Below, piece after piece: positions 49,107 to 53,948 of a stretch of 64,000 bases of DNA. The position numbers and the translations under genes are program-made. The stretch comes from an uncultured Winogradskyella sp. (lineage in GTDB: Bacteria; Bacteroidota; Bacteroidia; Flavobacteriales; Flavobacteriaceae): positions 1 through 64,000 of the forward strand of contig NZ_CALGNH010000013.1 in NCBI RefSeq assembly GCF_937958655.1, given 5' to 3'. The notes under the pieces were generated by a model. The model was given only the letters and a program-made list of their open reading frames with translations. It was not told the origin of the DNA and did not search any database. How positions within the stretch are numbered: position 1 is the first letter of the stretch; each line of letters opens with the position of its first letter.

Positions 49107-51851
49107 TTACTTAAGGGTCTTTTTAACTTCAACTTCTTGGAAGGCTTCAATAATATCACCTTCTTTTATATCATTATAGCCTTTAACTTGCAATCCACAA
49201 TCGTAACCTTTGGAAACCTCTTTAGCATCATCTTTAAAACGCTTTAGCGATGATAACTCACCAGTATGTACTACCACACCATCTCTAATTAAACGAATGC
49301 CAGAGTTTCTGTAAATTTTGCCATTTGTTACCATACAACCAGCTATGGTACCAATTTTAGAGATCTTAAAGGTTTCTCTAATTTCAGCAGTACCTGTAAC
49401 TTCCTCTTTAACTTCTGGAGATAACATGCCTTCCATAGCGTCTTTAAGATCGTTAATCGCTGCATATATGATGGAATATGTTCTGATATCAATTTCTTCT
49501 TTATCTGCTATGGATCTTGCATTCCCTACAGGCCTCACATTAAATCCAACGATAATCGCATCTGAAGCAGACGCTAATAACACATCACTTTCTGTAATGG
49601 CACCAACTCCTTTATGTATAATATTTACTTGTATTTCTTCAGTGGACAACTTTTGGAAAGAATCTGTTAATGCCTCTACTGAGCCATCCACATCACCTTT
49701 AAGTATAATATTTAATTCTTGGAAATCACCAAGCGCAATACGTCTACCAATTTCGTCTAAGGTTATATGACGTTGTGTTCTCACAGACTGCTCACGCTGC
49801 AATTGGGTACGTTTTGCTGCTATTTGTTTAGCTTCGCGTTCATCCTCAAATACGTTGAATTTATCACCTGCTTGGGGAGCACCATCTAAACCCAAAATAG
49901 AAACTGGTGTTGATGGCCCTGCTTCTTCTACGTCATTACCACGTTCATCATGCATAGCTTTAACCTTACCACTGTTTTTACCAGCTAATACATAATCACC
50001 TACACGTAATGTGCCTGACTGTACTAAAATTGTAGATACATATCCACGACCTTTATCTAAGTAGGCTTCTACTACAGTACCATTGGCTGGTTTTTCAGGA
50101 TTTGCTTGTAATTCTAACAATTCAGCTTCTAAAAGTACTTTTTCTAATAATTCCTTTACACCTGTTCCGAATTTAGCAGAAATATCATGAGACTGAATTT
50201 TACCACCCCAATCTTCAACTAATAAATTCATACTTGCTAAACCTTCTTTTACTTTCTCTGGGTTAGCGTCTGGCTTATCAATTTTATTAATTGCAAATAC
50301 AATTGGAACACCAGCTGCTTGTGCATGAGAAATGGCTTCTTTAGTTTGTGGCATAATAGCATCATCTGCTGCAACTACAATAATAGCAATATCGGTAACT
50401 TGAGCACCACGAGCACGCATTGCTGTAAAAGCCTCGTGACCAGGAGTATCTAAAAACGCTATTTTTTGACCTCCTTCTAATTGTACTCCATAAGCACCAA
50501 TATGTTGTGTTATACCACCAGACTCTCCAGCGATTACATTTTCTTCTCTAATGTAATCTAATAACGATGTTTTTCCATGATCTACGTGTCCCATAACGGT
50601 AACAATTGGTGCACGCGGTTTTAAATCTTTTGGATCGTCTTCTATAATCTCAATAGACTCTTCAATATCTGCTGTTACAAATTCTACAGAATACCCAAAT
50701 TCTTCGGCAACTATAGTTAAAGTTTCTGCGTCTAATCTTTGGTTCATGGTTACCATCATACCTAAAGACATACAAGCGGAAATTACTTGTGTTACACCAA
50801 CGTCCATCATGGTAGCAACCTCACTTACAGTTACAAATTCTGTAACTTTAAGTGTTTTGCTTTCTGCCGCTGCCAACTCTTGATCCATCTCAGTTTGCTG
50901 ACGGTGCTGATCTCTTTTTTCTCTACGGTATTTGGCTCCTTTACCTTTGTTAGATTTTCCTTGAAGCTTTTCTAACGTTTCTCTTACTTGCTTTTGTACT
51001 TCTTCTTCACTAGGCTCCTCTTTAACTACTTTAGGCCTCGTGTTTCCGCGTCCTTTAGCACCACGCCTATTATCAAAGTTTCTTCCACCTCCATCATTTC
51101 CGCCTTTACTTATACGACGTCTTTTACGCTTATTATTATCGTTTGAGGTTTCTTTTTTATCGTCCTTCTTCTTTTTAGGTTTATTAAATTGAGAAAGGTC
51201 AATTTTTTTACCTGTTGTTGTAGGACCTGTTAGCTTCTTATATTGTGTTTTTAAGGTTTCTTCAGCAGGTTCGCCTAAAGCATCTGCTTTTTCTAACTTC
51301 TCTTGTTTTGTTAGTGGTTTTTTCTCTTCTTTTTTTGATTGCTCGGCTTTTGGTGTTTCAACCTTATTTTCGGCTTCAACCTTTGGTAGAGACTTAGGCT
51401 TTTGGCCTTGATTTTCTGATTGTTTTTCCTCTGGCTGTAACGCTATGTTTTTCTCCTCCTTAACCGTCTCATTTTTCTCTTGCTCTACAGCCTTTGTTGG
51501 TTTTTTCTCTAAATCGATTTTACCAACCTGCTTAGGCCCACTGAGATCTGCTTTAGCTTTTACAACGGCTTCTTTTCTGGCTTCTTCTTTTTCCTTTTCT
51601 TCAATTTCGCGCTCGCGCTTTATTCTAAGTTCTTCTTTTTCTTTAAGCTTAGCTTCACTAACCTCTTGAGCTTTTTCACGTTTTGTTGCATCCGTCTGAA
51701 ATTCATCAGACAACGTATCGTAAACCTCTTGTGAAATTTTTGTATTAGGTTTTGCCTCAATTTCTATGCCTTTAGATTCTAAAAAATCTACTGCTCGATC
51801 TAATGAGATATTTAATTCCCTTAATACTTTATTTATTCTAATTTGAGCCAT
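49107..51851 (-). CDS. infB: Translation initiation factor IF-2
   Basis: [49 protein letters not shown]. Confidence 0.98.
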
Positions 51852-51917: not shown

Positions 51918-53150
51918 TTAATCTTCGAATTCTTCTTTTAGAATTCTAATAACTTCTAAAATGGTCTCTTCTTCAAGATCTGTACGCTTTACTAAATCGT
52001 TCACATCTTGTTCTAAAACACTTTTTGCAGTATCTAAACCTGCTTTACTAAATTCTGAAATAATCCATTCATCAATTTCATCAGAGAACTCTTTTAACTC
52101 TACATCTTCTTCTGCTCCTTCTCTAAATACATCTATTTCGTACCCTGTTAATTGGCCTGCTAAACGAATGTTATGCCCACCTCTACCAATAGCTTTAGAA
52201 ACTTCTTCTGGTTTTAATAGCACTTCTGCGCGCATATTTTCTTCATCTAATTTTAGAGAGGTAACGCGCGCTGGACTTAAAGCTCTAGTTACAAATAACT
52301 GTAGGTTATTGGTGAAATTAATAACATCAATATTTTCGTTTCCTAGTTCTCTTACAATACCGTGTATACGAGATCCTTTCATACCCACACAGGCACCAAC
52401 TGGGTCTATTCTATCATCATAAGAATCTACAGCAACCTTAGCTTTTTCTCCAGGTATACGTACTACTTTTTTAACGGTTATTAGTCCATCGAATACTTCT
52501 GGTATTTCTTGTTCAAACAATTTCTCCAAAAATAATGGAGATGTTCTAGACATTATAATCGATGGTTTACTTCCTTTTAATTCTACACTCTCTATAACTC
52601 CTCTTACATTTTCTCCTTTTCTAAAGAAATCAGATGGAATTTGTCTGTCTTTTGGAAGTATAATTTCATTACCATCATCGTCTAATAAAATAATTGCTCT
52701 ATGACGGATATGATGCACCTCAGCGGTATAAATTTCTCCTTCTAATTCTTTAAATTGCTTATAGATATTAGTATTATCATGTTCGTGAATTTTAGAAATT
52801 AGGTTTTGTCTTAAGGCTAAAATTGAACGTCTGCCTAGGTCAACAAGCTTTACCTCTTCAGCCACATCCTCACCAACTTCAAAATCTGGTTCTATTTTTT
52901 GAGCTTCTGATAATTCAATTTCTTGATTTGGTTCTTCCACATCACCATCCGCAACAACAATACGGTTTCTCCAAATTTCTAAATCACCTTTATCTGGATT
53001 GATAATAATATCAAAATTATCATCATCGCCATATTTCTTCTTTAATGCATTACGCAACACATCTTCAAGTATCGCCATCAGCGTTACTCTATCGATTAAC
53101 TTATCGTCCTTAAATTCTGAAAATGATTCAATTAATGCTACATTTTCCAT
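51918..53150 (-). CDS. nusA: Transcription termination/antitermination protein NusA
   Basis: RIDPVGACVGMKGSRIHGIVRELGNENIDVINF, KAIGRGGHNIRLAGQLTGYEIDV. Confidence 0.97.
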   Translation of the reverse strand: MENVALIESFSEFKDDKLIDRVTLMAILEDVLRNALKKKYGDDDNFDIIINPDKGDLEIWRNRIVVADGDVEEPNQEIELSEAQKIEPDFEVGEDVAEEVKLVDLGRRSILALRQNLISKIHEHDNTNIYKQFKELEGEIYTAEVHHIRHRAIILLDDDGNEIILPKDRQIPSDFFRKGENVRGVIESVELKGSKPSIIMSRTSPLFLEKLFEQEIPEVFDGLITVKKVVRIPGEKAKVAVDSYDDRIDPVGACVGMKGSRIHGIVRELGNENIDVINFTNNLQLFVTRALSPARVTSLKLDEENMRAEVLLKPEEVSKAIGRGGHNIRLAGQLTGYEIDVFREGAEEDVELKEFSDEIDEWIISEFSKAGLDTAKSVLEQDVNDLVKRTDLEEETILEVIRILKEEFED

Positions 53151-53162
53151 AATACCTATGAA

Positions 53163-53624
53163 TTAAAATTTTATTTTAACTTTTGCTTCTTTAATATCAT
53201 TAAAGGCTATCGATGCCTCTTTATTTACCGTTACTTTACCTTTACCTACTGGTTTTGGTTCTCTCGTTTTCCACTGCAACGTAATACCGTTATCTTCAAT
53301 GCTTTTTAATGTACCTTCTATAGTGTTATTATTGGTTTTAACTTCTAAATTACGCCCAACATGTTTACTATACTGTCTTGGCAAAAGTAATGGAGATGCC
53401 GCACCTGATGATAAAACTTCTAAAGAAAAATCATACTCATCTCTATCTAAATTATGCTCTATAGCTCTACTGATAAAAATACAATCTTCTACCAAAACTC
53501 CACGGTCACCATCTATTACAATTTTAATAGCATTACTAGTTGACATAGTAAAGTCTATCAAAAATAAATCTTGACGCTCATTGAGTGCGTTTTGCAATAA
53601 ATCCTCTACCTTACTTTTAAACAT
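53163..53624 (-). CDS. rimP: Ribosome maturation factor RimP
   Basis: EDCIFISRAIEHNLDRDEYDFSLEVLSSGAASPLLLPRQYSKHVGRNLEV; upstream of nusA. Confidence 0.94.
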   Translation of the reverse strand: MFKSKVEDLLQNALNERQDLFLIDFTMSTSNAIKIVIDGDRGVLVEDCIFISRAIEHNLDRDEYDFSLEVLSSGAASPLLLPRQYSKHVGRNLEVKTNNNTIEGTLKSIEDNGITLQWKTREPKPVGKGKVTVNKEASIAFNDIKEAKVKIKF

Positions 53625-53631
53625 CTACGAT

Positions 53632-53658
53632 AAAAAAGAGAGGACTTTTTGTCCTCTC
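53632..53658 (-). terminator. Terminator-like hairpin in the rimP 5' UTR (candidate attenuator)
   Basis: Minus strand GAGAGGAC-AAAAA-GTCCTCTC-TTTTTT, T run ending 7 nt before the rimP ATG. Confidence 0.75.
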
Positions 53659-53685
53659 GCTTATTTATTTCTTTAAATAACGATG

Positions 53686-53716
53686 CAAATATACACTATT
53701 TAAAGGACTTATCAAA
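53686..53716 (-). promoter_or_regulatory. Consensus promoter of rimP-nusA-infB
   Basis: Minus strand TTTG-N19-TATATTTG, exact match to TTTG-N19-TAnnTTTG. Confidence 0.85.
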
Positions 53717-53836: not shown

Positions 53837-53866
53837 AAATCCTCATTCTGTTTAGAATGAGGATTT
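53837..53866 (-). terminator. Terminator of tRNA-Gln
   Basis: AAATCCTCATTCT / AGAATGAGGATTT hairpin followed by T residues on the minus strand. Confidence 0.8.
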
Positions 53867-53875
53867 AAATTTTTG

Positions 53876-53948
53876 TTGGCCTACTAGGGCTCGAACCTAG
53901 ACTCTTCTGGACCAAAACCAGACGTGTTGCCAGTTACACCATAGGCCA
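53876..53948 (-). tRNA. tRNA-Gln (anticodon TTG)
   Basis: Minus strand TGGCCTATGGTGTAACTGGCAACACGTCTGGTTTTGGTCCAGAAGAGTCTAGGTTCGAGCCCTAGTAGGCCA: acceptor stem TGGCCTA/TAGGCCA, anticodon loop TTTTGGT, T arm GTTCGAGCC; CCA not encoded. Confidence 0.95.

Follow-up and report, generated by a model that had tools for sequence, protein, structure and literature searches.

A conserved terminator-like hairpin between promoter and rimP-nusA-infB in Flavobacteriaceae: a candidate NusA-linked attenuator

Introduction

The rimP-leader attenuator of Naville and Gautheret (2010; PMC2965389) consists of a GGGc(...)gCCC stem followed by a T stretch, lies 4-130 nt from the gene and has no antiterminator; the same paper reports NusA feedback in E. 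coli, and its main text contains no mention of Bacteroidetes or Flavobacteria. For the rimP-nusA-infB operon of S. agalactiae, a short transcript has been mapped whose 3' end lies 31 nt from the transcription start site, at a predicted intrinsic terminator, and feedback by NusA has been proposed (PMC4448216). B. subtilis NusA, according to Mondal 2016 as cited in PMC12288461, autoregulates through NusA-stimulated termination in its leader. Within the Flavobacteriaceae, a transcribed, structured rimP 5' element of F. psychrophilum is conserved in other genera of the family and is without an Rfam match (PMC9723704); the main text of that paper lists the element only, with neither mechanism nor sequence.

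Here we describe a hairpin in the rimP leader of an uncultured Winogradskyella sp. (assembly GCF_937958655.1), which lies in a window comprising the first 64,000 nucleotides of contig NZ_CALGNH010000013.1. The attenuator idea is already known in kind, from the work of Naville and Gautheret and from B. subtilis and S. agalactiae, while its detailed form in this phylum was previously undescribed; the present analysis contributes a sequence signature, evidence of covariation, the extent of the element through the phylum and its association with nusA. The last of these bears on a name, 'rimP-leader', that leaves the sensed product undecided.

Results

Anatomy of the leader

Pfam identifies RimP, NusA and IF2 in this order in the window, all on the minus strand (Table 1). 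A preliminary description of this DNA had listed a promoter, a hairpin, six T residues, ATCGTAG and the rimP ATG in succession, and this layout matches the minus-strand sequence: TTTG at 53716-53713 is followed by a 19-nt spacer and by TATATTTG at 53693-53686, and ATCGTAG fills the interval between the T run and the ATG (53624), with 13 nt from stem to ATG. Transcription would start just upstream of the AU-rich segment, near 53681, and the resulting 50-nt leader has a predicted fold of -15.7 kcal/mol (z = -5.2), with none of 200 shuffled sequences equally stable. The same description placed the hairpin inside the predicted rimP 5' UTR rather than at the end of an upstream gene, and this too holds, with a promoter between tRNA-Gln and hairpin and a terminator belonging to the tRNA-Gln itself.

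Table 1. Features of the rimP-nusA-infB region in the window.
Feature	Coordinates	Strand	Basis or remark
infB (IF2), downstream gene of operon	49107..51851	-	Pfam IF-2
nusA, proposed sensor and regulated product	51918..53150	-	Pfam NusA_N + KH_5
rimP	53163..53624	-	Pfam RimP_N + DUF150_C
T run, six T	53632..53637	-	expected 3' end of terminated leader (about 45-50 nt)
Candidate attenuator hairpin GAGAGGAC-AAAAA-GTCCTCTC, 8 bp	53638..53658	-	predicted -12.7 kcal/mol; conserved pairing
AU-rich leader segment with weak dyad TTATTT-AAAG-AAATAA	53665..53680	-	sequence
Promoter TTTG-N19-TATATTTG	53686..53716	-	Bacteroidota sigma-A type; read from sequence
tRNA-Gln with its own terminator	53837..53948	-	tRNA 53948-53875 by ARAGORN; terminator 53866-53837; neighbour, used as control

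The AU-rich segment with a dyad of its own was likewise correctly read from the sequence, but as part of the element the dyad fares poorly: its predicted fold in the window is just -1.6 kcal/mol, and a 6-bp dyad at this place occurs in 41 of 60 members of the genus versus 20 of 81 other members of the family. The dyad is not among the conserved features, and was rejected as a functional part because it lacks conservation in the family.

Conservation in the Flavobacteriaceae and beyond

The preliminary description had staked its reading in part on the conservation of hairpin and T run in relatives. We examined 141 rimP leaders, of which 60 are from Winogradskyella (the window and 59 further genomes) and the remainder from 81 other genera of Flavobacteriaceae, one per genus; an unbroken 8-bp hairpin (8/8 pairs) with a T run is present in all 141, and the hairpin extends to most of the class. 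Dinucleotide-shuffled leaders judged by similar criteria give a mean of 0.1 of 141, and the observation of the hairpin is confirmed as correct and far above chance. Stems are GAGGGGAC/GTCCCCTC in 79 leaders, GAGAGGAC/GTCCTCTC in 49, GAGGGGAC/GTCCTCTT in seven and GAGCGGAC/GTCCGCTC in three, with three singletons. The stem base and the TTTTTATA tail, found in 120 of the 141, are nearly invariant among relatives, and the flanks of the hairpin carry little sequence information. A conserved stretch upstream of the hairpin, CTGAAAGGATATAAAGTATTC, is seen in one group of genera only (L091, L099, L104, L110, L122-L123, L125-L126, L128).

The hairpin is coupled to the promoter. In 140 of 141 leaders the gap between the end of a TAnnTTTG box and the stem is 23-31 nt, the exception (L130) having a nearer second box, and a -33 TTTG or TTG is present in 87. 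The distance from stem to ATG is mostly 10-28 nt, and usually about 15 nt, but reaches 52-107 nt in four genomes (L103, L115, L116, L119). Since the first distance is nearly constant and the second variable, the position of the hairpin follows the promoter or transcription start and not the start codon.

The element is also a single-copy one. Of 201 family genomes, 141 contain an exact match to GAGRGGAC-N3..10-GTCCYCTCTTTT, in each case a single one. Among the 81 family leaders that were read, 68 contain the match, so that in those genomes the single match is the rimP leader itself. One genome (G040) has N at the leader position, and in another relative a second, weak match to the leader model (E about 0.005) lies elsewhere in the genome (G159:C1:10432-10487, plus strand). 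Of 60 rimP leaders from Bacteroidota beyond the family, 51 contain a terminator hairpin of at least 7 bp (shuffle mean 0.1); GAGGGGAC/GTCCCCTC is common to many families of the class Bacteroidia, and the stems differ in the other classes of the phylum. An R2 covariance model search with strict filters returned few members outside the family, though direct reading of the leaders showed them, and negatives of that search do not equate to absence.

Genomes without rimP

Some relatives have nusA but no detectable rimP, and a search of G004, G151 and G189 with the Pfam RimP_N model returned no match at a cutoff as loose as E ≤ 10. Apparent loss of rimP with retention of nusA-infB is seen in a series of small-genome Flavobacteriales (L316, L317, L318, L322-L328). 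Several rimP-less genomes are incomplete, and the criterion used was readable DNA directly before nusA without rimP; G167 (L315), a contig end with an apparent rimP 3' end, was left out. A hairpin and T run occur within 170 nt upstream of nusA in 12 of the 15 rimP-less genomes with readable upstream DNA (shuffle mean 0.1). By eye, L318 and L333 have shorter or bulged versions, and L332, a 0.3-Mb genome, is the sole one of the 15 in which no hairpin was found before nusA. The order in G004, G151 and G189 is tRNA-Gln, promoter-like box, hairpin, nusA, and the published GGGc/gCCC motif is present within AAAGGGC/GCCCTTTA, the form to which several stems of the order-level family f47 are reduced. 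A tRNA-Gln lies upstream of nusA in L316-L318.

The element is thus associated with nusA rather than with rimP: because it stands directly before nusA in these genomes it belongs to nusA(-infB), and because it is kept where rimP is absent RimP is not a required sensor there. In nearly all of the rimP-less genomes examined, nusA is still followed by infB, which leaves IF2 as a candidate sensor in them. Retention of the element before nusA strengthens the link to NusA.

Proposed mechanism and its alternatives

We consider it probable that the element is a transcription attenuator with negative feedback by NusA, although for this phylum we infer both termination and the role of NusA as sensor. 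Polymerase leaving the promoter would make about 45-50 nt and then meet a short intrinsic terminator before rimP-nusA-infB, the hairpin beginning about 20 nt after the expected start of transcription; a fraction of polymerases would stop there and the remainder read into the operon. NusA stimulates intrinsic termination in other systems, and abundant NusA would here raise the terminated fraction, creating negative feedback on the NusA level. Such feedback would need neither an antiterminator nor a leader peptide. No antiterminator or competing structure was found, the leader up to the 5' arm folding at a mean of -1.2 kcal/mol; the B. subtilis nusA leader reportedly has no antiterminator. The NusA-linked interpretation of the preliminary description is supported. 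The lack of conservation that would have refuted it was looked for and not found: the element is retained across the family and in the greater part of the class, keeps its distance from the promoter and shows compensatory changes.

The compensatory changes emerged from an alignment of leaders, a comparison that the preliminary description had proposed: in 55 aligned leaders 100% of cells are paired, three of the eight pairs have changed on both sides, and none of 500 shuffles does as well. In genus g129, probably Flavobacterium, the upper stems GGAC/GTCC, GAAGC/GCTTC, CACGC/GCGTG and GGGC/GCCC alternate with full pairing kept, while the base GAGG/CCTC and the TTTTTATA tail stay fixed. The upper-stem versions in this genus (L285-L314) are discrete and intermediates are nearly absent, a pattern unusual for stepwise drift. 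These comparisons indicate that pairing of the RNA is under selection, and point to selection on the hairpin sequence beyond pairing as well: between the window and 17 other family genomes with a tRNA-Gln just upstream, the tRNA-Gln terminator varies and the rimP hairpin hardly does.

Two counterpoints concern the strength and the sequence of the hairpin. With mean energies of -14.3 kcal/mol for the rimP leader hairpins and -14.0 kcal/mol for ordinary tRNA-Gln terminators, the former are at least as stable, and energies do not mark NusA dependence; the near-invariance of the stem base, moreover, exceeds what plain NusA-stimulated termination needs. It is possible, and we offer this tentatively, that the widespread 'rimP-leader' is really a nusA leader whose stem base and UUUUUAUA tail in Bacteroidia are recognised sequence-specifically, through the RNA-binding domains of NusA or by polymerase-bound NusA, and which would then be a dedicated NusA gauge and not a generic terminator that NusA stimulates incidentally.

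Conservation of the stem sequence far beyond pairing, unlike that of the adjacent tRNA-Gln terminator, might instead suggest an attenuator in which a sequence-specific binder other than NusA (IF2, a ribosomal or assembly protein, or another RNA-binding protein) sets termination or antitermination at GAGG/CCUC and UUUUUAUA, and Naville and Gautheret made a parallel argument for their motif (PMC2965389). We regard this as rather unlikely, as free replacement of the upper stem in g129 and the reduced stem of f47 argue against a rigid protein site common to all lineages, and RimP is excluded as a required sensor where it is absent.

The position in the 5' UTR, near the start codon in most genomes, would also suit a post-transcriptional element that protects the 5' end of the mRNA or controls translation of rimP, with an incidental T run. 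The T run, however, is conserved to the same degree as the stem, the position is tied to the promoter even where the start codon is 52-107 nt away, and the element is kept where nusA replaces rimP downstream, all of which make this reading improbable. Lower still do we rate a DNA operator, an inverted repeat immediately downstream of the promoter that a dimeric repressor would bind: most genomes do have a perfect palindrome at a fixed promoter distance, but the T run is on one side only, and the G-T wobble variants GAGGGGAC/GTCCTCTT are symmetrical in RNA only. Together with spacers of 3-9 nt, these variants break the palindrome in DNA and leave the RNA helix intact, ruling out a rigid DNA palindrome. 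Finally, it is scarcely credible that the hairpin is the ordinary 3' terminator of tRNA-Gln or another upstream gene, for although the window and 18 other leaders have a same-strand tRNA-Gln upstream, that tRNA has a terminator of its own with a promoter in between, and only 19 of 201 Bacteroidota leaders have a tRNA in the 500 nt preceding rimP, yet the hairpin is in all family members examined.

All 19 of these tRNAs are tRNA-Gln (53875-53948, minus strand, in the window; L020, L023, L025, L071, L084, L118, L278 and others). A coding role for the hairpin, as the rimP N-terminus or a leader peptide, was rejected: loops range from 3 to 9, frames differ, and only 26 of 131 leaders have an in-frame start codon at the 5' arm or upstream of it, with no start upstream of 53624 in the rimP frame of the window (open frame of 153 aa).

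Discussion

These results carry an attenuator proposed elsewhere across most of the Bacteroidota, with a sharp sequence signature and covariation evidence, and lineages without rimP constitute a natural experiment that ties the element to nusA. Together with the genera in which stems are swapped, they also provide ready-made constructs for asking whether NusA is the sole sensor and whether the sequence is read. The element is a candidate Rfam entry, as Rfam is without a Bacteroidota version; searches of the window against Rfam at a permissive threshold yielded chance matches only, none near the gathering score. The structured rimP 5' element listed for F. psychrophilum (PMC9723704) is very probably the same element.

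The element shares with the rimP-leader of Naville and Gautheret its operon, a short hairpin with a G-rich 5' and a C-rich 3' arm, a T stretch, an unusually conserved stem and the lack of an antiterminator or larger conserved structure. The arms and T stretch are GAGAGGAC/GTCCTCTC and TTTTTT in the window and recur in 141/141 leaders, and the distance to the gene start, 13 nt in the window and 10-107 nt in relatives, falls within the published 4-130 nt. The GGGc(...)gCCC motif differs from both the window stem and the Bacteroidia consensus, GAGGGGAC(...)GTCCCCTC, and strict GGGC/GCCC stems are found only in some relatives (genus g129 and some rimP-less genomes). Likewise, the RF01770 covariance model (threshold 47 bits) has no match in the window even at E ≤ 10, with an E. 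coli positive control scoring 102 bits. The element appears to work like the rimP-leader but departs from the strict motif and from RF01770, and it is therefore classed as a Bacteroidota variant of the rimP-leader.

The gammaproteobacterial rimP leader of RF01770 resembles the element in its GGGC-GCCC terminator and T run before rimP and in an upstream tRNA, although E. coli has a different one (metY) at the place corresponding to tRNA-Gln in the window; it differs in its length of about 100 nt and in a second, upstream terminator and an antiterminator. In the B. subtilis nusA leader, intrinsic termination takes place in the operon's own 5' leader, as is proposed for the present element, and the effect of NusA is experimental there and inferred here; PMC2965389 puts the length of that leader at about 180 nt, versus a hairpin that starts about 20 nt after the expected transcription start in the present case. 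The S. agalactiae leader, finally, has a terminator very near the transcription start of the same operon, and differs in phylum, in promoter and in having ends that were mapped, whereas those of the Bacteroidota element are predicted from sequence.
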